Source of the DNA: Prochlorococcus sp. AG-347-G22
GTDB lineage: Bacteria > Cyanobacteriota > Cyanobacteriia > PCC-6307 > Cyanobiaceae
DNA: 64,000 nucleotides
Assembly (NCBI GenBank): GCA_003281635.1
Contig: QCBK01000005.1
Coordinates: forward strand, 1-64,000
Direction of reading: 5' to 3'
This document shows positions 1 to 23,078 of the stretch, in pieces; the stretch's first letter is position 1; each line of letters begins with the position of its first letter. The translations under genes were made by a program, and so were the position numbers. A model generated the notes under the pieces. The model was not told where the DNA came from and made no database searches. It saw nothing but the letters and a program-made list of their open reading frames with translations.

Positions 1-211
1 TCCATAATCTGATTCCGTCATATCTATGAGCTAAAAAATAACTAATCAAGATAATTGCAGATGGCAAACTTAAAAAAACAAAACATAACCGCCATAATCT
101 TGGACCCATAATAGATTCTGCTTTGATTCTTAAAGCAGCTCCCCCACTATGAATGACTGCAAAAATCAAAATCAAAATTAAGATGATTAGCGAAGTTTCA
201 TGAGTCTCCAT
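1..211 (-). CDS. NnrU-family membrane protein, N-terminal fragment
   Basis: This reading frame runs off the left window edge, so only about the first 70 residues are visible. It starts at an ATG (209-211, reverse strand) with METHETSLIILILILIFA. A hydrophobic helix, the segment HSGGAALR and then GPRLWRLCFVFLSLPSA follow. The early helix, the His-Ser-Gly pair and the Arg-rich loop match the NnrU family of multi-pass membrane proteins, named from a denitrification cluster but common in cyanobacteria and plastids. Plant relatives such as Z-ISO act in carotenoid isomerisation, so a pigment role is possible, but that is inference. It is divergent from rbcR. Confidence 0.75.
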   Translation of the reverse strand, partial: METHETSLIILILILIFAVIHSGGAALRIKAESIMGPRLWRLCFVFLSLPSAIILISYFLAHRYDGIRLW

Positions 212-294
212 ATATTTAAATTGTTCAAATAATTTTTGTTCTTAACAAGAATGCTCTTAAGCATTAGAATTATAAGAAATTGTAGGCATAATAG

Positions 295-1239
295 ATGCCA
301 GAATTACCATTTACACTCGACCAATTAAGAATATTAAAAGCTATAGCAGCTCAAGGAAGTTTTAAAAAAGCTGCAGATATCCTATATGTAACCCAACCTG
401 CCGTAAGTTTACAAATACAAAATTTAGAAAAACAACTTGAAATCACAATTTTCGACAGAGGTGGAAGGAAGGCTCTATTGACTGAAGCAGGAAGGCTATT
501 ACTTGAATATTGCGAACGAATTTTGAATCAATGCGACGAAGCTTGCAAAGCTATTGAAGATTTAAATAGCTTAAAAGGTGGAACTCTTGTCATTGGAGCG
601 AGCCAAACAACGGGTACCTATTTAATGCCGCGAATGATAGGACTATTTAGACAAAAATACCCTGATGTATCCGTTCAACTTCAAGTCCATAGTACGAGAA
701 GAACTGGTTGGAGTGTAGCCAATGGACAAATTGACTTAGCTATTATTGGCGGACAATTACCCGGAGATTTGGAAAATTTGCTACAAGTAATTCCATATGC
801 CACTGATGAATTGGCATTAGTTTTACCATCTAAACATCCACTTTCGACCAAAAAAGAGCTTCTGAAAGAAGACTTATACAAATTAAATTTTGTAACATTA
901 GACTCACAATCTACAACAAGAAAAGTTGTTGACAAACTTCTACAAGATTCTGGGCTTGATATTCAAAGATTAAAAATTGAGATGGAACTTAACTCTCTTG
1001 AAGCAATCAAGAATGCAGTTCAATCAGGTTTAGGAGCCTCCTTTTTGCCTGTTGTTTCTATTGAAAGAGAATTATCGGCTGGGACAATCCATAAAGCATT
1101 CATTGCTGATTTAGAGGTAAAAAGAGAACTTAAATTAATTACTAATCCCTCAAGATATACATCAAGAGCATCAGAAGAATTTAAGAAAAACATTCTCCCA
1201 CAATTTGCTAGTTTAGAAAGCCCTTTGAGGCATATATAA
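295..1239 (+). CDS. rbcR: RbcR, LysR-type transcriptional regulator of RuBisCO/CO2 genes
   Basis: A 314-residue LysR-type regulator. The N-terminal winged helix-turn-helix covers about residues 5-65 ([18 protein letters not shown], then [20 protein letters not shown]). The periplasmic-binding-like effector domain begins near residue 95 with [17 protein letters not shown]. Length is normal for the family. The sequence resembles cyanobacterial and plastid RbcR (Ycf30), which controls RuBisCO and carbon-acquisition genes in response to metabolites. No rbc genes lie in this window, so the target is taken from family knowledge. The 83-base gap to the divergent nnrU-like gene must hold both promoters, and autoregulation from there would be typical. 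Confidence 0.9.
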
Positions 1240-1245
1240 TTTCGA

Positions 1246-1869
1246 TCAAAACTGAATTGCTTCTCTGTTAATACCTACCCCGCCGTCTTCAGCTTGTCCT
1301 TCACCTTTTATTATAAATTTATTTTCATTTACATCAGTCTGATAAACGCACTTAACGATTGGTTTATCTCTTATAGAACCAATATAAGCAAAAGTATTCA
1401 TCCTTTGCTTACATTCTCTTACATCTTCATTACTTATTGCGCCCTCTTTTTGTAGCACTGTCCAATTCTCTCTTCTAATAACACACCCTGGCTGAAGAGC
1501 TGGTTGCGTTACAAAACTCGTAGATGGATTCAGAGTCGTATACATTTCAACATCAATAACAAAAGCACTTGCACCCCATTGTCTGCAAAATTCAGGATCT
1601 GGAACAGCCATATCTAATTGTTGTTGACTTGCTATATTTCCCTGCCCGCCATCAGTTGTACTGGTAATAGCGCTCCCGATACCAACTCCTAAAATTAATA
1701 CTCCAGCAAGTACGGCAATGGTTCCTGTACTAAAGTTGATCTTTTGTTCAGAAGAAGCAGGCAATCTGTTGCTTCTTTGACCATACGGATCCATTTCCTT
1801 TGGATTGGAGGGGTAATAACTTCTATTTGAGCCTCTTCTTGGCCTTCTATTTGAGGATGATCTATTCAC
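1246..1869 (-). CDS. DUF3172 cyanobacterial single-pass membrane protein
   Basis: A 207-residue protein with a basic, low-complexity N terminus rich in Arg, Ser and Asn. One transmembrane helix lies at about residues 48-66 ([19 protein letters not shown]), followed by a soluble domain. That domain has conserved-looking Cys residues ([28 protein letters not shown]). This architecture matches the cyanobacterial DUF3172 family, whose function I do not know. It starts with GTG overlapping the ndhM stop by four bases, so it is probably translated from the ndhM message. That linkage hints at a thylakoid or NDH-1 connection but does not prove one. Confidence 0.8.
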
Positions 1870-2213
1870 AGCACTTCATTTGTCTTTGGTAAACCCATTG
1901 AATAATTCATCACTCTACAATCAGGGTTATAGCTAAGCTGACCATTTTGAAGCAATAACTTAATCAAACCTTCAATTTCTGATCCTATTTTTCGAAGTTC
2001 ATAATCATCTAAATCCTTTCCTGCTCTCTCTTTTATTAATTCATTGAATTTTACATTTATTTTGTTTAGAGAATCTTCGTTCCAAATAAATTCGTTATCA
2101 GGATCTAAATCAAGAGTTAGTTTATTGGGATGAAACTTTAATTCCTCGTCTACCACTTCGGCAGTAAAAATTCTTACATGCCTAGTAGTCGATTTTAAAA
2201 GCATTTTTTCCAT
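1866..2213 (-). CDS. ndhM: NdhM, NAD(P)H-quinone oxidoreductase subunit M
   Basis: A 115-residue soluble subunit of the thylakoid NDH-1 complex, which carries out cyclic electron flow and respiration. Diagnostic stretches are [16 protein letters not shown] at the start, [15 protein letters not shown] in the middle and [11 protein letters not shown] near the end. Length matches cyanobacterial NdhM. It is the first gene of a two-gene leftward unit with the DUF3172 protein and is divergent from pds across 90 bases. Together with ndhO at 25.9 kb, two of the oxyphotosynthesis-specific NDH-1 subunits lie in this window. Confidence 0.95.
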
Positions 2214-2261
2214 AATTTTACGAAATAATCAACGAAAAAAACTATTATGTTCTAACTTTAA

Positions 2262-3704
<1,443 letters not shown>

Positions 3705-3738
3705 GATTTACATTCCAAAAAAATTCATCTAAAACTTT

Positions 3739-4647
3739 TTGAAAAATTCAATTTCTCAACTAGATCAAGCATACGAGATATGCAGAAAAGAAACCCAAAA
3801 ATGGGCTAAAACCTTTTACTTGGGAACCCTTCTGCTACCTGTAGAGAAAAGAAAAGCTATTTGGGCTATCTATGTTTGGTGTAGAAGAACAGATGAAATA
3901 ATGGATAGCCTAGAAGCTTCAACAAAATCGCAAGATGAACTTGCAGAAAATTTAAATGCATGGGAAGAAAATACAAAGAATGTTTTTAAAGGCAACATTA
4001 AATCTGAATTAGATGCCGTTTTACTAGACACCATCGAAAAATATCCACAAAGTATTCAACCTTATCTAGACATGATAGATGGCCAGAGAATGGATCTTAA
4101 TAAATCTAGATATAAAGATTTTGATGAATTAAAACTCTATTGTTATAGAGTCGCAGGGACAGTTGGTTTGATGACTCAGAATGTCATGGGGATTGATAGT
4201 GCTTACACATCCGCTCCATGGAGTGCCAAACCTGACCCCTCAGAAGCCGCTATAGCATTAGGTATAGCTAATCAATTAACAAATATACTTAGAGATGTAG
4301 GCGAAGATAGGCAAAGAGGTAGAATTTATCTTCCTCAAGAAGATATTGAAAAATTTAATTATTCTGAAGAAAAACTTTTAAAAGGTGAAATAAACAAACA
4401 ATGGAAAGCACTAATGAAATTTCAATTAACCAGAGCTCGCGATTGGTTCCAGAAATCTGAAGATGGAATCAAATGGTTATCTTCTGACGCAAGATGGCCT
4501 GTTTGGACATCCTTACGTCTTTACAGAGGAATATTAGATTCGATAGAAAGGCTAGACTATGATGTTTTTAATAATAGAGCTTTTGTAAAAAATTCAGTAA
4601 AAGCCTTTGAAATTCCTATATCTTTTTTAATTTCTCGAATTAAATGA
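3739..4647 (+). CDS. crtB: Phytoene synthase
   Basis: A 302-residue squalene/phytoene synthase that joins two geranylgeranyl diphosphates into phytoene. Two Asp-rich metal/diphosphate-binding signatures are seen: YVWCRRTDEIMD near residue 50 and ANQLTNILRDVGEDRQRGR near residue 180. The start is TTG at 3739. An in-frame TAA lies three codons upstream and no ATG fits, so TTG is well supported. It sits directly after pds and is probably cotranscribed with it. The stop codon abuts the end of the convergent RNA-binding-protein gene with no gap, so no room remains for a separate terminator. Confidence 0.95.
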   Translation: MKNSISQLDQAYEICRKETQKWAKTFYLGTLLLPVEKRKAIWAIYVWCRRTDEIMDSLEASTKSQDELAENLNAWEENTKNVFKGNIKSELDAVLLDTIEKYPQSIQPYLDMIDGQRMDLNKSRYKDFDELKLYCYRVAGTVGLMTQNVMGIDSAYTSAPWSAKPDPSEAAIALGIANQLTNILRDVGEDRQRGRIYLPQEDIEKFNYSEEKLLKGEINKQWKALMKFQLTRARDWFQKSEDGIKWLSSDARWPVWTSLRLYRGILDSIERLDYDVFNNRAFVKNSVKAFEIPISFLISRIK

Positions 4648-5067
4648 CTAAGCAGGAGTCTTCTGATTAGCCAACAAATCTTTTAATTTAGATAGTTCTC
4701 CTGCCCATCTTGGATCAGGCGCTTCTAGATTAGGAGCATCACTATGAACAATTTTCTTAAAGTCTTTCCTCTTCTTATTCTTATTTGATTTTCCACTATT
4801 TCTCTTATTTGAGGCAGAATCTTTCTTTTCTGATAGCTCTACTCTTAATTTAGAACCATTAAATTCAAAACCATTTAATTTTTGAATTAATAAATTTGCA
4901 TTATCTTCATTATTGGAAGTCGCAAAACCAAACCCCCTGCATTCCTTAGTTTCCTTATCTAAAACTGCTTTAAATCTAATCGAGTCAGAAACTGACTTTA
5001 AAAGTGTATCAAATTCTTTTGGATTAAATCCCTGTGGTAAGTTGCCAATGTAAATGCGAATACTCAT
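4648..5067 (-). CDS. Single-RRM RNA-binding protein with basic tail
   Basis: A 139-residue protein. Residues 1-80 form an RNA-recognition motif with RNP2 (IRIYIGNLP) and RNP1 (CRGFGFATS), like the cyanobacterial Rbp cold- and stress-responsive RNA-binding proteins. After the RRM comes a Lys/Asn/Ser-rich stretch (KRNSGKSNKNKKRKDFKK), and then a conserved-looking C-terminal segment (APDPRWAGELSKLKDLLANQ) not found in the shortest Rbp proteins. Family knowledge suggests mRNA binding, possibly near thylakoid-membrane translation sites, but the specific RNAs cannot be told from the sequence. Confidence 0.88.
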   Translation of the reverse strand: MSIRIYIGNLPQGFNPKEFDTLLKSVSDSIRFKAVLDKETKECRGFGFATSNNEDNANLLIQKLNGFEFNGSKLRVELSEKKDSASNKRNSGKSNKNKKRKDFKKIVHSDAPNLEAPDPRWAGELSKLKDLLANQKTPA

Positions 5068-5125
5068 AAATTTTTAAAAATGATTTTGAAGTCTAAACTT
5101 CTAAACAAAACTAAGCTATGTGTAT

Positions 5126-6343
5126 TTAATCACATTTTGGCGCATTTTGTTCAATCCATTGCTTTGCTTTATAAATAGCTTCATCAAAATTATTCAATCT
5201 TTTATATGCAAGTTCTTTAGAAAGATACTGTAAAAGCTCTCCCAAGATGGGTCCATCCTTGATTTCCAAATTTTTTTTTATTACATCACCATTAACTAAG
5301 TTTGAGGGATGAAATAATTTATCATTGTTGTCACGCCATCTATGGAGCCAATCTAATTGTAAGTTTTGAGGTAAATAAAAAATAAAAGATGGCAGAAACA
5401 TTTCTAATTCTTGATGTAATTTAAATCTATCCAATTCATCTAACTGAGAGATATTTTTGTTTTTCAAGAAAAAGTGCCATTTTCGCAATAACTTAGTTTT
5501 TGCAATATCAGCTTTACTAAATTGAAGTTTCTCTAAAGTTACAACATCTAAGATTTGAGCAATAAAAAATGATGGTAAATATTTATCTTTTTCTTCCTGA
5601 TCAAGTTCTTCATAATTGATTTTCTCTAAATCCAAAAAAAAAGAATCTTCAAATAAATTTTCAGTATCAAATATATCTAATTTTTTTATCAACAATACTG
5701 CATCAAGAGCATTTGCTCCATTTACTATTTTCTGTATTTCATAAGTAATTCTCTCTTTGCTGACAAGATATAAGTTCCCTTTATTTTTTTTTATAAAATC
5801 GACTAATCTTAAATCAATTTTAAAATTCAACTCTGAAACAAATCTAAAACATCTTAAAATTCGTAAAGGGTCATTTAATAAATTGTTTTCGGAATGGGTT
5901 CTAAGCATAGAAATCTCTAGATCTTCAATACCATTTAATGGATCAAACAAACAATTCTTGTCAAATAAAAAAGCAATTGAATTAATCGAAAAATCTCTAG
6001 AATATAAATCTCCCTCTATCGTAGATGAAACCTGATTAGCAATATCAATATAAATATGATTAAGAATAATTCTTACAACTTCTCTTTTTTCATCTAAAAT
6101 TATTAACTTTGATCCAATATTCTCTGCAATCTTTTTACCAATTTCAATTGCATTTAAAGGAACCACAATATCAACATCTACTTTTTCAGTTTTTCTTCCC
6201 AAAATAATATCTCGTATGAAACCACCAACTAAATATGATCCTTTAGGTAAAAAACCAAATATTGAATCCAAATCATGAGATTTTATACTTGTTTCTAATT
6301 CATCAATTATTAGTGTATGATCTGTGTGAATGCTACTTTTCAT
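5126..6343 (-). CDS. tRNA nucleotidyltransferase / poly(A) polymerase family protein
   Basis: A 405-residue class II nucleotidyltransferase. The head domain has YLVGGFIRDIILGRKTEKVD and the DVDIVV metal-binding pair at about residues 35-65, then the RRD-like segment SRDFSINSIAF and the RNA-binding neck (LRILRCFRFVSELNFKID). These are hallmarks of CCA-adding enzymes and bacterial poly(A) polymerases, and motif reading alone does not separate the two. In this lineage CCA addition to tRNA is the likely essential role, though the long, divergent C-terminal half leaves room for the alternative. The start codon is only 14 bases from the divergent ycf34 start. Confidence 0.85.
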   Translation of the reverse strand: MKSSIHTDHTLIIDELETSIKSHDLDSIFGFLPKGSYLVGGFIRDIILGRKTEKVDVDIVVPLNAIEIGKKIAENIGSKLIILDEKREVVRIILNHIYIDIANQVSSTIEGDLYSRDFSINSIAFLFDKNCLFDPLNGIEDLEISMLRTHSENNLLNDPLRILRCFRFVSELNFKIDLRLVDFIKKNKGNLYLVSKERITYEIQKIVNGANALDAVLLIKKLDIFDTENLFEDSFFLDLEKINYEELDQEEKDKYLPSFFIAQILDVVTLEKLQFSKADIAKTKLLRKWHFFLKNKNISQLDELDRFKLHQELEMFLPSFIFYLPQNLQLDWLHRWRDNNDKLFHPSNLVNGDVIKKNLEIKDGPILGELLQYLSKELAYKRLNNFDEAIYKAKQWIEQNAPKCD

Positions 6344-6357
6344 TTTATTTATTTATT

Positions 6358-6609
6358 ATGTGCATTTGCATCAACTGTAAGTGGGTTGATAGATGTATCA
6401 CATATCATGATGTGGAGAATAATCATGGTGTTGATCATATTTGTGATCTACCTAATTTTAAAGCAAAAAAACCATTCATTCATGTCAGTATAGTTAAAGA
6501 TAATAATGGTGATTATAAAACCGATTGGGATGTTCAATCTTGTGAAAGTTTTGAAAATGAATTTGGTAAATGGTCTAAGTGTAATCCAGGTATGGAATTA
6601 CCTGCTTAA
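6358..6609 (+). CDS. ycf34: Ycf34 family protein
   Basis: An 83-residue protein beginning MCICINCKWVDRC, with further Cys residues at ICDLP, QSCESF and SKCNP. The Cys pattern and length match Ycf34, a small Fe-S-type protein of cyanobacteria and red-lineage plastids linked to photosynthetic electron transport. A longer in-frame reading from 6262 exists, but its extra 32 residues overlap the divergent nucleotidyltransferase gene and look like non-coding translation. The start was therefore set at the ATG where family similarity begins. The tsaB start follows nine bases downstream. Confidence 0.88.
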   Translation: MCICINCKWVDRCITYHDVENNHGVDHICDLPNFKAKKPFIHVSIVKDNNGDYKTDWDVQSCESFENEFGKWSKCNPGMELPA

Positions 6610-7276: not shown

Positions 7277-7897
7277 TCATCCAATCAAATTATTAATTTT
7301 ATCTTGAAGGTCCAATGTTACAGAATTTAGATCATCTTTTGATGAACTTTGTGGAGGTTGAACAGGATTTCCCACTTTAATAACTATTTTTGAAAACAAA
7401 GGAATAAAGCTTTTAAATCTTATTAATCTATGAGAATTAATTATAGCAACAGGCAATAATAATTTTTGATTTTTAAAAGCTAGTAATGCTGCGCCTTGTT
7501 TGGGCTTATTCACTCGACCATTTTTTTGACGAGTGCCATCAATAAAAATTCCAATAGAATTATCATTTGATAATTTTTTACATGCTGTTTTAATTGTATT
7601 TTTATCAGCAATACCTCTTTTTACAGGATATGCTCCACAAGCCCTGATAATAAAGCCAAGTAAGGGAATTTTAAAAAGCTCTGCCTTGGCCATAAAAGAT
7701 ATATTACGTCCAAGGGCATGGCCTAACAAAGGAGGGTCAAGTAAAGAACCATGATTAGAAACCATGATAAAAGAATCTTTTTGAGGAATATTTTCTCTAC
7801 CGATCAAATGACCTTTAAATACAAATTTATAAATAGGAAATACAAAAAGCTTGCTAACTAATTCATAGATTAATTTTTGGAAAGTATGATTTTTCAT
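7277..7897 (-). CDS. plsC: 1-acyl-sn-glycerol-3-phosphate acyltransferase (PlsC family)
   Basis: A 206-residue membrane-associated acyltransferase. The catalytic motif VSNHGSLLDPPLLGHAL (HX4D) is near residue 50. The glycerophosphate-binding region IGIFIDGTRQKNGRVNKPKQGAALLA is a variant of the FPEGTRS block with Asp in place of Glu. It would acylate lysophosphatidate to phosphatidate at the cytoplasmic membrane. It is the last gene of the leftward plsX-fabH-fabD-plsC run, five bases after fabD, so fatty-acid initiation and glycerolipid assembly are grouped together. Confidence 0.88.
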   Translation of the reverse strand: MKNHTFQKLIYELVSKLFVFPIYKFVFKGHLIGRENIPQKDSFIMVSNHGSLLDPPLLGHALGRNISFMAKAELFKIPLLGFIIRACGAYPVKRGIADKNTIKTACKKLSNDNSIGIFIDGTRQKNGRVNKPKQGAALLAFKNQKLLLPVAIINSHRLIRFKSFIPLFSKIVIKVGNPVQPPQSSSKDDLNSVTLDLQDKINNLIG

Positions 7898-7902
7898 ACA
7901 AA

Positions 7903-8799
7903 TTAATAAGATATTTGATCACTAGATGAAACTTGAGAAATTTTTACATCCTTAAGATGTCTTTTTACTAAACCGCTTAGTACATTAGAAGGGCCAATTT
8001 CAACAATATGAAGATCACTATCTTTTGCCATTAAATCCATAGTTTCACGCCATCTAACTCCATTACACATTTGCTTTTCTAGTCTAATTTTAAGCTCATT
8101 TGAATCACTACAGAGTGAGGGTTCAAAATTACTTATAACTGGGAAAGAGGGATTGTTAAATTTAATCTGTTTTAAATACTCAGAAAATTTTGATGAAGGT
8201 TCATTCATAAATGGTGAATGAAATGCACCTGAAACATTTAATTTTAAGAATCTTTTACAAGAAATTTCTCTCGATAAATTATCTAAGGCTTCAGTAGATC
8301 CTGATAAAACAACTTGGGAAGAGCTATTATCATTGGCAATTACAACATCATCAATTTTTTGCACTAATAGATCAAGTTGATTTCTATCAAAACCAATTAC
8401 TGCTGCCATAGATCCTTTCCCAGCATTTACCATTAATTGAGACCTTTCTTTTATAAGAGAAACACAATCTTCGAATGAAAAAACATCCGCACAATATAGT
8501 GCAGTGATTTCGCCAAGACTATGCCCAGCAACATAATTTGGTTTAAATCCATTTTCCTTTAATGCATCTAATAAAATTGATTCAACTAAAAAAAGACAAA
8601 TTTGTGTATTTCTTGTGTTATTTAAATCAATAAGAGGATTTTTTGGTTCAACATTTAACTCACAAATTTCAAATAAATTCCTCTCAAATATCTCAGATGC
8701 ATAACTAAACCTCTCTTTTGTGTTGGGCAAATTTTCAATTTGTTTTGCCATTCCAATTTTTTGTGAACCCTGTCCAGGGAATACCCATGCAATTGTCAT
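7903..8799 (-). CDS. fabD: Malonyl-CoA:ACP transacylase
   Basis: A 298-residue enzyme loading malonyl groups onto acyl carrier protein. It shows the N-terminal WVFPGQGSQKIGMA, the nucleophile motif YVAGHSLGEITALYCA (GHSxG) and the downstream SGAFHSPFM His block. A longer frame opens at 8844, but those 15 residues overlap fabH and lack family similarity. The chosen ATG at 8797-8799 has a good GGAG ribosome-binding site just upstream and begins MTIAWVF, as is typical. It sits between fabH and plsC in the lipid operon. Confidence 0.95.
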   Translation of the reverse strand: MTIAWVFPGQGSQKIGMAKQIENLPNTKERFSYASEIFERNLFEICELNVEPKNPLIDLNNTRNTQICLFLVESILLDALKENGFKPNYVAGHSLGEITALYCADVFSFEDCVSLIKERSQLMVNAGKGSMAAVIGFDRNQLDLLVQKIDDVVIANDNSSSQVVLSGSTEALDNLSREISCKRFLKLNVSGAFHSPFMNEPSSKFSEYLKQIKFNNPSFPVISNFEPSLCSDSNELKIRLEKQMCNGVRWRETMDLMAKDSDLHIVEIGPSNVLSGLVKRHLKDVKISQVSSSDQISY

Positions 8800-8813
8800 A
8801 ATGCTCCTTTTTT

Positions 8814-9821
8814 TTAACCCCATTTTATGAGGGCAGCCCCCCAACTTAACCCAGCACCAAAACCACTTGTGGCAATAATATCATTTTGTTTAATTTTATT
8901 ATTTCTAATAGCCTCATCCATAACTAGTGGAATTGTTGCTGCTGAAGTATTACCATATTTTTCTAAATTGCTAAGAATTTTTTCTACTGGAATTTTTAAC
9001 CTATCACCTACAGAATCCAATATCCTTTGATTAGCTTGATGCAACACAAGCCAATCAACTTCATCGGATGTATAATTCATTTTTTTAAACAACTTTTCAA
9101 GAACTATCGGAACTTCTCTAACTGCAAATTTATACACTTCCTGACCATTCATCTGAATTGAAGAAAAAGTTCCATTTGAAAATTCTATGTTATCAATTAT
9201 TGAATCCGCATTATTTTTTGAAGGAAGATTAAGAAAAGAACCCCTTTCTCCATCAGTTCTCATATCAAAACCAATTAAATTATCAAATTCATTAGTGGCT
9301 TCAATTGCTAATGCACCTGCACCATCTCCAAAAAGAATACAACTTCTTCTATCATTCCAATCAACAAAGCTTGATAGTTGATCTGCTCCTATAACAATAG
9401 CCCTCTTAAAACTTCCCCCTTTTAAAAATTGTGAGGTTGTAATTAGGGCAAATAAGAACCCACTACATGCTGCAGTTAAATCAAAAGCAACAGCATTAGT
9501 TGCCCCTAATTTAGCTTGAATGGATGGCGCTGATCCAAATAAATCATGCGGAGTAGAAGTAGCCAAAACAATCAAATCAATCGTTTTAATATCCCAATTA
9601 GCCATTTCTATAGCAGTTAGAGCAGCCTTATAGCCCATATGAGTAACATTATCTCCTAAGCTAGAAATTCTTCTTTCAGAAATGCCCGTTCTAGATTTTA
9701 TCCATTCATTGCTTGTATCAACCTTTTGACTAATTTTTTGATTGGTCAGAATTTGATCAGGTACATAACTTCCGCTTCCCTTAAATGATACTCCAATCTG
9801 ATTAAAGTTTATTACTTCCAA
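8814..9821 (-). CDS. fabH: 3-oxoacyl-ACP synthase III (KASIII)
   Basis: A 335-residue initiating condensing enzyme joining acetyl-CoA and malonyl-ACP. Active-site Cys is in FDLTAACSGFLFAL, His in WLVLHQANQRILDSV and Asn in LEKYGNTSAATIPLV, so the Cys-His-Asn triad is complete. The start is a TTG at 9821, and the frame begins MEVINFNQIGVSFKGSGSYVP. The usual family start region is in GSGSYVPDQILTNQ, so a slightly shorter form is possible. It is transcribed leftward after plsX with a 53-base gap. Confidence 0.94.
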   Translation of the reverse strand: MEVINFNQIGVSFKGSGSYVPDQILTNQKISQKVDTSNEWIKSRTGISERRISSLGDNVTHMGYKAALTAIEMANWDIKTIDLIVLATSTPHDLFGSAPSIQAKLGATNAVAFDLTAACSGFLFALITTSQFLKGGSFKRAIVIGADQLSSFVDWNDRRSCILFGDGAGALAIEATNEFDNLIGFDMRTDGERGSFLNLPSKNNADSIIDNIEFSNGTFSSIQMNGQEVYKFAVREVPIVLEKLFKKMNYTSDEVDWLVLHQANQRILDSVGDRLKIPVEKILSNLEKYGNTSAATIPLVMDEAIRNNKIKQNDIIATSGFGAGLSWGAALIKWG

Positions 9822-19211: not shown

Positions 19212-19571
19212 ATGAAAAAGAAGCCTATTATCTTCTCTGATTTATCAAAAAAACAACTAGAAAATCTTAAAGAAATTTACATTCAAAAAAAAGTTGAATC
19301 GATGAGTCATCAAGAACTTAGAGAATATGTACTAGAAATTATTTCTCATCAGATAAACGAAACTATCGGCAAAGAAGAGGAAATGGAGGCATGGAGAGAA
19401 ATGTCAGACTTTTTTGGGGAACAATTTGAAATAATTATCTTAGAAATACAAACAAAATACAATGAGGATAAAAATGCACTTAAAACAGAAATAGATCCTC
19501 AGAAACAGCGATTAGAATTACTTGAAAGGAATAATTTAGAACAAGAGAAAAAAGACATGTGGGATGACTAG
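19212..19571 (+). CDS. Acidic, helical hypothetical protein
   Basis: I do not recognise this 119-residue protein with certainty. It is almost all predicted helix and rich in Glu and Lys, with no membrane segment. The centre, about residues 30-78, reads MSHQELREYVLEIISHQINE then EEEMEAWREMSDFFGEQFE, which looks like a folded conserved core. The last third (LKTEIDPQKQRLELLERNN) looks like a coiled coil. Proteins with similar central segments are, to my recollection, frequent in marine picocyanobacterial accessory regions. It stands alone, rightward, between rpaA and the convergent cassette at 19.7 kb. Confidence 0.65.
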   Translation: MKKKPIIFSDLSKKQLENLKEIYIQKKVESMSHQELREYVLEIISHQINETIGKEEEMEAWREMSDFFGEQFEIIILEIQTKYNEDKNALKTEIDPQKQRLELLERNNLEQEKKDMWDD

Positions 19572-19736
19572 AATTTTCTAAATGATTGGTGTAATTCAAA
19601 AGAGAAAAATTATATCTTAATTTTTTAGAACGTAAAATCAACAAAAGAACTTAATTTTTTGTTTCAGTAGAAAATTTAGTATGTGTTTAATTTACTGTGA
19701 TTGAGTTATTGAGTATTTATCTTGAAAAAAATATTT

Positions 19737-20756
19737 TTAGAAACGATATTTAGCTAGTTTGGATATTGGTTCTAATATTTCTTCATTAATAGATTTAATA
19801 GGGAAGTAGGAAATAAAATAACCGTATTCATTTTTAGACTTTTTGTCAGAGCTAAGATTTTGATTTTTAATTGATTTTTTCATGGGATTTGAAAAAACTC
19901 TAGGCCCATGATCACTCATTATTACAAGGTCATCTATATCTTTCTTTAAAATAAGTTGCCCTATAAGAGATCTTAATGAATTCGTTAGTTGTCTATCAAT
20001 CTCGGGGTATATTGAAAAATTATTGTAATGTTGGTGAAAATAAAAGTCATGAAAGATTAGCAAATTAGAATTTACGTGATTAATTTTATTTTGAATCCAA
20101 AGAGGTATTTCTTGGACTACTTTTGGATTTACTAATGAACAATGCTTTACTGCTCGATCGTGAATTTCTATATATTTTTCCTTTAGGTTATCTGATAAAA
20201 AAGGCATCTCACTAGCGATTTTAAAAGGAGCTATTTTTACAAGATCTTTGATAGATTTGAATCTGGAATCACAAAGTGTTGACTCTTGACTAAAAAATTG
20301 ACCTGAGTTTATAAATTCAAGGTAAGAATTATTTCCAAAATAGGGGTATGTACATCCAGATCCTTCATAATAAGTATGCCCTGCTAATAGGTAAGCTAAT
20401 GATTTTGCTGTTCTCTCATATTTAGAATAGTTTGAACCGTAAATTAAGCTATTAGATTTTAGATATTTATGCAGTTGAGACTCATCAGAGGTTAAATCAT
20501 AATAAATTGAATTTACTGGGTATGCATCAATAACAATTAGAAGAGTTTTTCTTTTGCTGTTATTTATAATTGAAAGAATTGAATCTTCCATAGGTATACA
20601 GCTTTTATCAACAAAGTATCTAGAACCAACAAAAGAAACATTTCTACCCTTATGCTCGGAATTGAATATGTACAAATTTTGCAGCAATCTAGAAAAAGAT
20701 GTAAGTGCTAGAAAAAATATAAAATAACCTATATAAATTTTGAAGTTAAGTTTCAT
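19737..20756 (-). CDS. Membrane-anchored alkaline-phosphatase-superfamily (sulfatase-like) enzyme
   Basis: A 339-residue protein with one N-terminal transmembrane or uncleaved signal segment (residues 7-25) and the rest probably outside the cytoplasm. Signs of the alkaline-phosphatase/sulfatase fold are LLIVIDAYPVNSI (metal-binding Asp77), ERTAKSLAYLLAG (Thr116 a possible nucleophile), LIFHDFYFHQHY with several His, and LVIMSDHGPRVF (Asp282/His283). A Thr nucleophile would point to a phospho-group transferase rather than a Cys/Ser-formylglycine sulfatase. No sulfatase CxPxR motif is seen. It is the last gene of the four-gene cassette, one base after its neighbour. The substrate is unknown, and a surface-glycan role is inferred from context. 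Confidence 0.65.
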   Translation of the reverse strand: MKLNFKIYIGYFIFFLALTSFSRLLQNLYIFNSEHKGRNVSFVGSRYFVDKSCIPMEDSILSIINNSKRKTLLIVIDAYPVNSIYYDLTSDESQLHKYLKSNSLIYGSNYSKYERTAKSLAYLLAGHTYYEGSGCTYPYFGNNSYLEFINSGQFFSQESTLCDSRFKSIKDLVKIAPFKIASEMPFLSDNLKEKYIEIHDRAVKHCSLVNPKVVQEIPLWIQNKINHVNSNLLIFHDFYFHQHYNNFSIYPEIDRQLTNSLRSLIGQLILKKDIDDLVIMSDHGPRVFSNPMKKSIKNQNLSSDKKSKNEYGYFISYFPIKSINEEILEPISKLAKYRF

Positions 20757-20757
20757 A

Positions 20758-21150
20758 TTAGTTTCTCTTTTTATTTAACTTCAAATCACTTACCAGAGTT
20801 GAAATAAATAATATTAATTGCAATATAAGAAAATCTAACGAGTAATACTGATGATCAGAGGAAAATAATAAAACAGAATTAATTAAACATAACAACCAAA
20901 TAATCCATGATATTCTTTCGTTCTTAATTTTGTATGAATGTTTTACGACTACTATTATAAAACAACAAATTATCTGAAAAGGTATTAATTGATTACCATA
21001 ATTAGATTCAGCAGGAAAACGAATTGTACTTATATGGGTACTATGAAAAAAAAGATTATTTATTAATTGTGTAATCAGAAAAAGATAACCTATTATGGCT
21101 GATAGTTTTATTAGTCCTTTATTTTGTTTTTTTAATGAGTTCTCAATCAT
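20758..21150 (-). CDS. Small multi-pass membrane protein, unknown function
   Basis: A 130-residue protein with about four hydrophobic segments near residues 15-36, 55-70, 80-96 and 100-119, separated by short polar loops (HSTHISTIRFPAES, SYKIKNERIS). It ends in a basic tail, KLNKKRN. I recognise no family. It overlaps the upstream kinase/methyltransferase gene by eight bases and ends one base before the phosphatase-superfamily gene, so the three are probably cotranslated. It could be a membrane partner of that enzyme, but no motif shows this. Confidence 0.6.
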   Translation of the reverse strand: MIENSLKKQNKGLIKLSAIIGYLFLITQLINNLFFHSTHISTIRFPAESNYGNQLIPFQIICCFIIVVVKHSYKIKNERISWIIWLLCLINSVLLFSSDHQYYSLDFLILQLILFISTLVSDLKLNKKRN

Positions 21151-22528
21151 TTTTCTTTTCTAAGTGAATAGCGAATCTAGTTTCACTTAAAGTCTCTTTA
21201 TGAATTATGTTGAACCAATTTTTGCAGGTTTTATAATGCAGATCTTCCCAAGACCAATCTATAAATTCATTTTTCTTTTTCATTAATGTTTTCACCATAG
21301 GGTCATTTTTTAATGGAAATTCCAACAAAATGTCATTAAATAACAAAGATAATGAATAATATAGAGCATCTACATTTAGTCCTGAATCTATAACAATATG
21401 ATGTATTAATCCCATTATGATTGCTGCATCTGCATAACCATTGCAATTTAATCCCATAAAATCCATATGGTTTTTTTGAGTTAAAGCTTCTGCAATATCT
21501 AGCAATAAAGTTATATCATTTTCAGAAGATTCTCTGTAAAGTTCTCTGCAAACACTTATATCTTTATCTATTCTAATATCAATCCTAGTGTTATTAATTG
21601 TAGTAAGATTAGATCCTAAATCTACTATTTTTCTACTCTGATTAATTTTAGAAAGAAATAGATTAATTGCTTTATTCTTATTCTTCAGGTACGAATCATC
21701 ATGAAAATTTTGATAATTTATCCATTCGCTATTATGATTTAAATTTGGTTTTACCTTCTTCAATAATTGTGATTGAATTAAAGATATTCTCTTTAATAAT
21801 TTCTTAGAGGGTGTTGAATGTTTTTTGGTATGAGAAGAGTATAAAAATTCTATAAATTCAGGAGAAGAATTTAATACTTTTTGAGATATAAAGTTATTAA
21901 TATAATCTCTGATTGATTGTATTGATATTGTTTTACTAAACCAACTATTTATCAATCTCATTGGTAATATATTGAATTTGTAGAGTTCTCCTTTGAAGCT
22001 TGCAGAAACAGGAATATTCATATATTTCTCTAACAATAGTGGATTAAAAATGTATTGACTGAAATCACTCCTAAAAGATTCAATATTTTGTGAAGTTAGT
22101 GGCTTAATGCTTCCTAAATCAACCAATGAATAAGGCTTTGAAGCTAGCCAATAATTTTCGGGTCTACAATCAACTAAGCATAATCCATTCTTAACTAGTA
22201 TTTCTTGTTGCTTTAGAATGTTATTTGCTAAATCATATAACATTTGACCTGTGATCCACTGAGGATATAACCACGGCCTCTTTATTTCTTGAATATAAGT
22301 TAATTTTCGTCTAAGGCTTTTAAAATCTTTCTTTGGCGAATCAATTATTTCAAGAGGAGCTAAAACTGATTTTGGATCATATTTAAGTAAAATTTTTAAT
22401 CCATTCTTTAATGCATTTTCCTCAAGATCATTATTAAAAAATATGGTCTTTCTGATTACTTTTCCATCAGTAGATATCTCCGAGGAAGAAGTTCCTGTTT
22501 TAAATAATAACTTTTCTATATTAGGCAT
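21143..22528 (-). CDS. Kinase-like domain fused to NoeA-type SAM methyltransferase
   Basis: A 461-residue two-part protein. Residues 1-150 resemble a small-molecule or lipopolysaccharide kinase: KVIRKTIF near 23-30, the catalytic-loop-like LVDCRPENYWL (Asp120, Asn125) and the DFG-like LVDLGSI (137). Residues 295-461 form a class I methyltransferase: motif I RKIVDLGSN, an acidic IDIRIDKD, and the C-terminal block LLEFPLKNDPMVKTLMKKK typical of NoeA-like methyltransferases. The joining of phosphotransferase and methyltransferase activities recalls, by analogy only, WbdD, which caps O-polysaccharides with methyl phosphate. It is the second gene of the cassette, and its real substrate is unknown. 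Confidence 0.7.
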   Translation of the reverse strand: MPNIEKLLFKTGTSSSEISTDGKVIRKTIFFNNDLEENALKNGLKILLKYDPKSVLAPLEIIDSPKKDFKSLRRKLTYIQEIKRPWLYPQWITGQMLYDLANNILKQQEILVKNGLCLVDCRPENYWLASKPYSLVDLGSIKPLTSQNIESFRSDFSQYIFNPLLLEKYMNIPVSASFKGELYKFNILPMRLINSWFSKTISIQSIRDYINNFISQKVLNSSPEFIEFLYSSHTKKHSTPSKKLLKRISLIQSQLLKKVKPNLNHNSEWINYQNFHDDSYLKNKNKAINLFLSKINQSRKIVDLGSNLTTINNTRIDIRIDKDISVCRELYRESSENDITLLLDIAEALTQKNHMDFMGLNCNGYADAAIIMGLIHHIVIDSGLNVDALYYSLSLLFNDILLEFPLKNDPMVKTLMKKKNEFIDWSWEDLHYKTCKNWFNIIHKETLSETRFAIHLEKKND

Positions 22529-22533
22529 AAGAC

Positions 22534-22758
22534 CTATTTTATTTTACGATTTTTTTTCTCAAGATTTTTTGTTGCTATCTTAGAAATGATTCCATGAAAT
22601 GGCTTAGTAATAAAAGTTAGGATTTTATTTTTTTTAAACTTTTTTCTATTTAAGTAAATATAAACACAAATAGTAGCTATTAAGGCTCCCAAACTATTAA
22701 AAGCAATAGTTGCAATTATAGGCCCTGCATATCCAAAGGTGTACAAATAATTCACCAA
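22534..22758 (-). CDS. Small membrane protein with basic tail, first gene of cassette
   Basis: A 74-residue protein with one or two hydrophobic segments (TFGYAGPIIATIAFNSLG, then ALIATICVYIYL), followed by a highly basic tail (NRKKFKKNKIL, NLEKKNRKIK). The start is TTG at 22758 or GTG one codon later; no ATG fits. It resembles short membrane-anchor proteins seen in polysaccharide clusters, but I cannot name a family. It is separated from the kinase/methyltransferase by five bases and is the first leftward gene after the tRNA-Asn terminator. Confidence 0.5.
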   Translation of the reverse strand: MVNYLYTFGYAGPIIATIAFNSLGALIATICVYIYLNRKKFKKNKILTFITKPFHGIISKIATKNLEKKNRKIK

Positions 22759-22945
22759 TCATTTATTAGAAGATATCATAAATTGTTCTTAAGAGTCCGA
22801 AAATTTAATTTCTAGAATCTTTATTTATCTATATGAATATTTAAGATATTTCGAATGGACATAAAAAATAATGAATTTTAAGAATATCCTCACCATATTC
22901 CCACCATTTTCGTAAATATAAAAATTCATATAAACAAACCTCAAT

Positions 22946-22968
22946 AAAAAAGACCCCAACGGGATCTT
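22946..22968 (-). terminator. Intrinsic terminator downstream of tRNA-Asn
   Basis: On the reverse strand, AAGATCCC and GGGGTCTT form an 8-bp stem (with one G-T pair) around a GTT loop, followed by a run of T. It lies 27 bases past the 3' end of the tRNA-Asn gene in the transcribed direction. The GC-rich stem stands out in this AT-rich DNA, which makes it the most convincing terminator in the window. Confidence 0.8.
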
Positions 22969-22995
22969 GAGGAATCTTTTGAGATTTAAATTGAA

Positions 22996-23067
<72 letters not shown>

Positions 23068-23078
23068 ATATAAAGTGA

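Follow-up and report, generated by a model that had tools for sequence, protein, structure and literature searches.

A four-gene cassette beside tRNA-Asn in Prochlorococcus as an exchangeable, divergent NoeA-NoeB-type module and candidate modifier of a surface glycan

Introduction

What does a compact block of four leftward genes next to a tRNA-Asn gene of Prochlorococcus sp. AG-347-G22 encode, and how did it come to lie there? The block is part of a 64,000-nucleotide stretch of contig QCBK01000005.1 (the window, to which all coordinates refer). A sequence-only reading had described it as an accessory cassette at a position typical of gene exchange, encoding a small membrane protein, a kinase-like/NoeA-type methyltransferase fusion, a four-helix membrane protein and a membrane-anchored enzyme of the alkaline phosphatase (AP) superfamily, and had proposed that these proteins cap or decorate a cell-surface polymer. 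Profile searches, fold searches and comparisons of gene neighbourhoods were here used for the analysis of this locus. The cassette is real and exchangeable, and it belongs to a known but uncharacterised kind of module, of which it is a new split and divergent form. With a probability of roughly 0.55 it represents a NoeA-NoeB module that has diverged very strongly, is exchanged laterally and modifies the end of a cell-surface glycan. The genes are, in leftward order:

22534..22758, minus strand: gene 1, small membrane protein of 74 amino acids (aa) with a TTG start, one helix and a basic tail (open reading frame (ORF) call, hydropathy)
21143..22528, minus strand: gene 2, divergent NoeA-family kinase-like/methyltransferase protein of 461 aa (hmmsearch, hhalign, fold search)
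20758..21150, minus strand: gene 3, four-helix membrane protein of 130 aa (hydropathy, partner in Prochlorococcus sp. AG-679-M10)
19737..20756, minus strand: gene 4, membrane-anchored AP-superfamily enzyme, NoeB-like, 339 aa (hhalign, alignment, fold rows)

The ORF list and ARAGORN confirmed the four leftward genes, the gaps between successive genes (5, -8 and 1 bases) and the position by tRNA-Asn. The G+C content of the cassette is 0.27 compared to 0.31 for the window, and equally low values were found in 2 of 122 sliding windows of cassette size. Searches of Pfam, NCBIfam and PHROGs gave no match of meaningful E-value for any of the four proteins.

Homology of gene 2 to NoeA

Judged from sequence comparison, gene 2 is a very divergent NoeA which shares ancestry with this family of conserved kinase-methyltransferases, for which the available part of PMC9758233 gives a neighbour of AP fold, NoeB, and an uncharacterised reaction. 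When a profile of 24 relatives excluding Prochlorococcus was run with hmmsearch over 4454 ORFs, protein 2 was found at an E-value of 1.1e-19 and its copy in AG-679-M10 at 7e-13, the next match standing at 0.14. The comparison of protein 2 with the NoeA-type family by hhalign gave an E-value of 1.7e-17 over 415 columns, the best of six shuffled controls reaching 0.048, and the homology to NoeA spans both domains, kinase first. The annotated NoeA of Ensifer/Sinorhizobium was reached through a bridge protein (L024), which is 34% identical to it over 99% and is matched by 65 plasmid records; the identity of gene 2 to family members outside Prochlorococcus is 15 to 20%. The earlier call of a kinase-like/NoeA-type methyltransferase fusion was thus borne out by hmmsearch, hhalign and the fold search described below. 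A search of the open-access literature for NoeA with methyl phosphate, or for NoeA with Prochlorococcus, returned no paper.

The N-terminal kinase-like domain of gene 2 carries D120, N125 and D137, which are kept in 23, 26 and 26 of the 26 rows of one alignment, respectively, and in 15 of 15 rows of another. The C-terminal domain is a class I methyltransferase with D303, G305, D321, H376, H377 and E403. At the second glycine of the S-adenosylmethionine (SAM) loop, which is G in 24 of 26 rows, both Prochlorococcus copies have Thr (Thr309 in the window copy), and both are without the NPSP-type block. Methylation by the gene 2 product may be lost, because this glycine is replaced. Gene 2 could accordingly be read as a kinase-only descendant, in which the methyltransferase domain would be a dead scaffold in Prochlorococcus and a bare phosphate would be exchanged or removed by the AP-fold enzyme. 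Such a course would fit with both copies having lost the NPSP-type block and the second SAM-loop glycine while keeping the kinase residues. However, both still possess the E-F motif as well as His-His and the conserved acidic residues, and we regard a kinase-only descendant as quite improbable.

Relationship to WbdD

A candidate reaction for the family is named by WbdD of E. coli O9a and K. pneumoniae O3, which was the top PDB match of the family profiles at E-values of 0.012 (26 rows), 3e-7 (6 rows) and 1e-12 (15 rows), the next PDB family following at 0.007 with the 6-row and at 9e-5 with the 15-row profile. Most of the WbdD score came from the methyltransferase; with the 6- and 15-row profiles the kinase loop aligned too, in swapped order. 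Active-site residues matched as follows: D351 of WbdD with D120 of gene 2, N356 with N125, D369 with D137, and H132-H133 with H376-H377. According to the available part of PMC3482155, exchange of D351 for A or E abolishes the kinase activity of WbdD, while H132A, H133A, R203A and Y16F abolish phosphate methylation; the same part gives NodS and RebM as having His-His or Tyr-Tyr and as lacking R203. The His-His match by itself is therefore not diagnostic of WbdD, since NodS has His-His or Tyr-Tyr at that place. R451 of gene 2 is a candidate counterpart of R203 by place only.

In a Foldseek search with the structural model of protein 2 (mean predicted local distance difference test (pLDDT) 66), the first three ranks went to WbdD, and matches to protein kinases, STK16 among them, were also obtained. 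The model of the methyltransferase domain gave Z-scores of 15.2 for NodS, 14.6 for BCDIN3D, 14.4 for MePCE and 13.2 for WbdD, BCDIN3D and MePCE being RNA phosphate methylases. PDB matches to ribosomal protein S8 were taken as chance, and the methyltransferase C-terminus alone as query yielded TubZ and two further chance matches, which were likewise set aside.

Gene 2 resembles WbdD in its clearly related methyltransferase, its weakly related kinase loop, and its catalytic Asp and His-His in matching places. It differs in its domain order, which is kinase-methyltransferase instead of methyltransferase-kinase, in its SAM loop without the second glycine, and in that the coiled-coil ruler of WbdD was not seen in it. 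The cassette, to which the search for Wzm-Wzt was confined, contains neither Wzm-Wzt nor a glycosyltransferase, and it has an AP-fold enzyme in addition. Since the domain order is reversed, gene 2 may work like WbdD but is not a member of its family. The K. pneumoniae O7 terminator ORF6-O7 is alike in being a bifunctional methyltransferase-kinase glycan terminator, and unlike in that its kinase domain is described as differing from that of WbdD (PMC11231755, available part). In the available part of PMC9758233, WbdD is treated in connection with a different family.

Gene order and glycan context of the relatives

The partners of gene 2 have counterparts beside NoeA elsewhere. The phylum set comprised 20 loci (L040 had been dropped, having stops inside), whose lineages are related and which do not count as independent cases; a small membrane protein lies upstream of NoeA in 17 of these and an AP-type gene directly downstream in 16. 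Pfam Sulfatase was matched by 3 of the 5 phylum AP-type proteins tested, and also by the Ensifer and Novosphingobium proteins; the other AP-type calls of the phylum set were made by alignment (13 of 16 aligned) or by place. The order small protein, NoeA, NoeB recurs in Ensifer, Singulisphaera and Novosphingobium plasmids, the Ensifer layout being nodL, small protein, noeA, noeB. Compared to the NoeA-NoeB pair as known from nodL-noeA-noeB of Sinorhizobium meliloti and Lani_1194/Lani_1195 of Legionella, the cassette is alike in having a kinase-methyltransferase followed by an AP-fold membrane enzyme and, as in Ensifer, a small protein upstream. It is unlike in that the NoeB part is seemingly two genes, gene 3 thus standing between gene 2 and the AP-fold gene, the small protein is not recognisably related by sequence, and the SAM-loop glycine is replaced.

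The short protein before NoeA mostly carries a Y-[LIV]-[DN]-P-G-[TS]-G-S motif (e.g. L042 6754-6969 and L043 8817-8999; hereafter the YLDPGTGS-type protein), and three tested short upstream proteins had no Pfam or NCBIfam match of note. In the three phylum-set loci with neither partner (L031, L034 and L035, which are related), NoeA has its kinase Asp replaced by Ser and its first His by Pro, so that in these copies partner loss goes together with loss of active-site residues.

Five full-length relatives were obtained from other cyanobacteria of the class. Three lie directly after Wzm and Wzt with Wzt_C (L140, L143 and L144), an arrangement like that of WbdD, and the remaining two (L141 and L142) adjoin glycosyltransferases. 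The Novosphingobium and Smac51 copies are located within glycan clusters.

Comparison of genes 1, 3 and 4 with NoeB and the small protein

Gene 4 was aligned by hhalign with 21 NoeB-type proteins at an E-value of 3.3e-6 (probability 88, 206 columns), the best of six column-shuffled controls reaching 0.69. In the alignment it retains D77, T116, H236, H241 and D282-H283-G. Sulfatases have the formylglycine motif C/S-x-P-x-R. Gene 4 is without this motif and has Thr (T116) in the formylglycine place, as have at least 90% of the 21 NoeB-type rows, the placement being read from the alignment. The AP-superfamily fold rows for gene 4 all had Z-scores below 8 and count for little by themselves, and no Foldseek E-value fell below 0.001; together with hhalign and the alignment they uphold the AP-superfamily call. 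LtaS, EptC/MCR, BcsG, GacH and YejM were found among the predicted fold rows, and gene 4 would share with them the Thr at the nucleophile place and the Asp/His ligands, whereas its membrane helices are mostly on another protein.

The N-terminal multi-helix domain of NoeB is absent from the gene 4 chain, which has one membrane segment, four others being on the separate upstream gene 3; for this reason gene 4 is called NoeB-like and not NoeB. A simple hydropathy scan gave 1, 0, 4 and 1 membrane segments for genes 1 to 4, and the 4+1 of genes 3 and 4 is comparable to the 4 to 6 helices counted in 13 of the 21 NoeB-type proteins, in which both parts are fused. The membrane features assigned by the sequence-only reading therefore hold in the window, but with the same cut-off the AG-679-M10 copies gave 2 segments for gene 3 and 0 for gene 4, so that the 4+1 count is only approximate. 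NoeB seems to be split here into a four-helix protein (gene 3) and an enzyme (gene 4), gene 3 being perhaps the split-off N-terminal membrane part of the NoeB-like enzyme. No sequence match of gene 3 to NoeB N-termini was found, and genes 1 and 3 had no significant match outside Prochlorococcus. The comparison of gene 1 with the YLDPGTGS-type protein gave an hhalign E-value of 0.19 and no hmmsearch match; place and one helix are alike. Based on place, helices and order, we suggest that gene 1 replaces the small protein and gene 3 the missing NoeB membrane domain.

Weighing of the surface-glycan reading

A role in capping a surface glycan is suggested by the relationship to WbdD and by the relatives beside Wzm-Wzt, and this part of the earlier proposal gained ground from both; it lost ground through the SAM-loop glycine replaced in both copies, through genes 1 and 3 being unmatched outside Prochlorococcus, and through the neighbourhoods of the phylum set. 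The glycan and restriction-modification cargo of the same site in some other strains and the relatives in predicted phages, both described below, also speak for the module as a glycan modifier. A number of results weigh against the reading of the cassette as a NoeA-NoeB module acting on a glycan end. With regard to WbdD, the kinase loop alone matched weakly (E-values of 0.089 with 15 rows and 4e2 with 6 rows), WbdD was found neither by a profile of the two Prochlorococcus copies nor by protein 2 as a single query, no alignment reached R203, which sets WbdD apart from NodS, and NodS, not WbdD, had the top Z-score for the methyltransferase domain. With regard to NoeB, hmmsearch with the NoeB-type family did not find gene 4, and the gene 4 model is poor (mean pLDDT 51). 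As for the relatives, His-His is missing in 3 of the 5 class relatives, one of them Wzt-linked, and no NoeB or small protein was present in the ORF lists of these five. According to the available part of PMC9758233 a NoeB homolog neighbours the NoeA family in 38% of 816 loci, and the pair is therefore common but not fixed. The Singulisphaera copy adjoins plasmid genes, and few glycosyltransferases were counted among 133 neighbours of the phylum set (133 of 137 scanned, four above 1000 aa left out), which are not glycan-rich, no control regions having been scanned. Finally, no glycosyltransferase or exporter is present among the cassette ORFs.

Some of these results fit a different substrate, namely a small secreted molecule or a lipid decorated by a module of NoeA-NoeB type instead of the end of a surface polymer. 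The phylum-set copies lie mostly outside glycan clusters, the methyltransferase domain is near NodS, and noeA and noeB are part of an operon nodL-noeA-noeB tied to Nod-factor host range (PMC9758233, available part), a layout which was seen in Ensifer. We consider such a small-molecule or lipid substrate unlikely in view of the WbdD match, the Wzm-Wzt neighbours and the glycan clusters in which the copies of Novosphingobium and Smac51 are found, and the two proposals overlap because Nod factors are glycans.

Proposed function

If the cassette acts on a surface glycan, the small membrane protein of gene 1 would keep the NoeA-type protein at the cytoplasmic face, where the kinase domain of gene 2 would phosphorylate the terminal sugar of a lipid-linked glycan and the methyltransferase domain would then methylate this phosphate group, in the manner of WbdD of E. 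coli O9a. Alternatively, the altered SAM loop may be dead, and the bare phosphate would be left. At the outer face, the products of genes 3 and 4 would form one split NoeB-like enzyme with a threonine nucleophile; it would act on this glycan too, and its likeliest activity would be that of a phospho-group transferase or a hydrolase. The analysis establishes the common ancestry of gene 2 and NoeA, the repeated association with the other parts, the agreement of active-site residues and the variability of the site, whereas we infer the substrate, the capping with phosphate, the tethering by gene 1, the union of genes 3 and 4 in one enzyme and any phage effect.

A broader proposal covers the whole NoeA family, which may be a domain-swapped cousin of WbdD that caps glycan ends with methyl-phosphate or phosphate and that, together with the small protein and NoeB, would constitute a portable kit shared among nodulating bacteria, cyanobacteria from the sea and elsewhere, and phages, some of them filamentous, and would alter host or virus recognition; the Prochlorococcus form would be the one with a split NoeB, swapped at a tRNA-Asn hotspot. 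This proposal is tentative, and we hold it to be possible rather than probable. The available part of PMC9758233 presents noeA and noeB as host-range genes with a reaction described as uncharacterised, and the link to WbdD names a candidate for it. If true, the capping kit would give these nodulation genes a concrete chemistry, and the cyanobacterial copies beside Wzm-Wzt would be a natural setting for the proposed reaction.

Distribution of the cassette

The cassette is present in 2 of 266 genomes of the genus, and the order of its four genes is identical in the two, which supports the earlier description of an accessory unit. The second carrier is Prochlorococcus sp. AG-679-M10 (contig QCUQ01000025.1, locus L017), where the copy of gene 1 is cut by the contig end and the identity to the window is 43% for gene 2, 25% for gene 3 and 32% for gene 4. 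Protein 2 has this one true relative among the 265 other genus genomes, and a search of all 266 with protein 4 led to the same pair. Absence counts for the genus are approximate, since no more than 87 of these genomes are at least 90% complete; protein 4 was present in 0 of the 87. The identical order at identities from 43 down to 25% indicates that the genes have been kept together across a long divergence, and the view of the cassette as an accessory unit travelling as a block is supported. That the four genes have no function in common, having come together by chance or being a remnant in decay, would agree with their rarity in the genus, but given the same genes and order in two genomes so far diverged it is scarcely credible.

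Among 15 matches of protein 2 in the genus, 13 were rejected as chance (short, E-values of 0.004 to 0.01, ORFs of 391-393 aa), as was a second match in its own genome. The cassette of AG-679-M10 was considered for a location at tRNA-Asn, and this was dismissed, the tRNA-Asn there adjoining a 1623-aa ORF instead (L128 1009-5877). The AG-679-M10 cassette is followed downstream by a gene that by eye is like that of glyceraldehyde-3-phosphate dehydrogenase and by a 2-hydroxyacid dehydrogenase gene, and on its upstream side the contig breaks off; this genome, which is 61% complete, yielded no rpaA.

Beyond the genus, 1 of 201 genomes of the wider family was matched, namely the own genome. With the 26-row profile, matches were obtained in 2 of 399 genomes of the order, in one case confined to the methyltransferase portion of an ORF of 802 aa. 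In the class, 7 of 388 genomes were matched, own included, the five full-length relatives being from this last search; a further class match (G985, one short match) was not among the relatives examined. A first scan of a genome collection, a first viral scan and a two-row viral scan gave no matches, and protein 2 as direct query had no match in phage records and two weak ones, at an E-value of 0.5, in plasmids. The 802-aa ORF with the NoeA-like methyltransferase part (L139 7565-9970) belongs to another genus of the same family, and its neighbours look glycan-like by eye.

The gene-exchange hotspot between rpaA and tRNA-Asn

The cassette occupies an interval with the following borders and adjoining features:

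22995..23068, minus strand: tRNA-Asn (gtt), one hotspot edge (ARAGORN)
22950..22972, minus strand: terminator-like hairpins after tRNA-Asn (pattern scan)
19212..19571, plus strand: DUF7326 ORF of 119 aa, other hotspot edge, outside the cassette (Pfam E-value of 1.7e-18)

The rightward, conserved DUF7326 ORF sits between rpaA and the cassette. The gene rpaA was located in 38 of 40 other genomes at least 90% complete; 34 loci were fetched, and four were skipped because rpaA lies near the contig end. DUF7326 stands beside rpaA in all 34 fetched loci and seems to mark a constant edge of the hotspot. In 25 loci the fetched part extends to tRNA-Asn, the other nine ending at a contig end or having an interval beyond the fetched part. 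The interval from the rpaA side to tRNA-Asn measures 117-6529 base pairs (bp) in these 25 loci (below 600 bp in 11, above 1000 bp in 14) and 3424 bp in the window. The four genes are far from conserved in all strains at this place, no cassette gene being found at an E-value of 1e-5 within the fetched part of the 34 loci, 9 of which have incomplete intervals. The variable length and cargo agree with the position typical of gene exchange that had been noted earlier, and they support the interval as a gene-exchange hotspot.

The cargo scan covered a chosen 50 hotspot ORFs, a subset of all. Sugar-nucleotide and glycosyltransferase genes were found in four loci (L069, L075, L079 and L081; family tallies, with the assignment to loci partly by eye), and restriction-modification cargo in three, of which L058 has a type II DNA methylase, L073 has type I restriction genes and L080 has a helicase-like gene of type II. 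The Prochlorococcus site thus alternates surface, restriction and other genes, a pattern that would be expected under phage pressure. The restriction-modification genes could also point to the four genes as an intracellular signalling or defence pair, with a kinase acting on protein and no relation to the cell surface; for Legionella, too, a role of the family as putative effector kinase has been considered (PMC9758233, available part). Such an activity is very improbable: no PADLOC profile matched any of the four proteins at E-values up to 1, 3 of the 4 proteins have a predicted membrane segment, and some relatives have a glycan context. Structures that would place the proteins in unrelated intracellular pathways, and so speak against the earlier proposal, did not appear.

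With respect to the mode of exchange, no recombinase-sized ORF is present, there being besides the cassette no ORF above 61 aa in 19572-22994, and a scan of the window that allowed up to 3 mismatches located the 22-base end of tRNA-Asn at a single place, i.e. without a repeat. Because neither was found, homologous recombination appears likelier than a self-moving element at the tRNA-Asn site, and exchange by this route has been proposed for replacement islands (PMC4033161, available part). Variable cargo next to a tRNA gene is shared with tycheposons (features from the available part of PMC10872708) and replacement genomic islands; unlike tycheposons, the window locus is without a tyrosine recombinase and without a tRNA-end repeat at the far edge. 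Directly past tRNA-Asn, 2 hairpins were observed in the pattern scan versus 0.9 expected. As a side observation, the cargo of L059 2978-7815 is by eye a nitrite-use-like gene set, with one Form_Nir_trans match in the pooled scan.

Relatives in predicted phages

A search of 50,697 phage records with three family members as queries gave no match, and NoeA-family relatives were found on four viral contigs of IMG/VR, which are predictions. Two of these (L104, IMGVR_UViG_3300024433_000373, and L105, IMGVR_UViG_3300025146_000155) encode NoeA and a NoeB-like protein next to an ATPase that is Zot/protein-I-like, a type known from filamentous phages (PHROGs). In L105 the NoeB-like gene is truncated where the locus ends; with a small protein, and with a 92-aa membrane protein encoded separately between NoeA and the NoeB-like gene, L105 resembles the Prochlorococcus layout. 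On L106, a small YLDPGTGS protein and NoeA (7681-9371) come directly after tail-fibre genes (between 1264 and 6927), and genes that by eye are methyltransferase-like come after NoeA.

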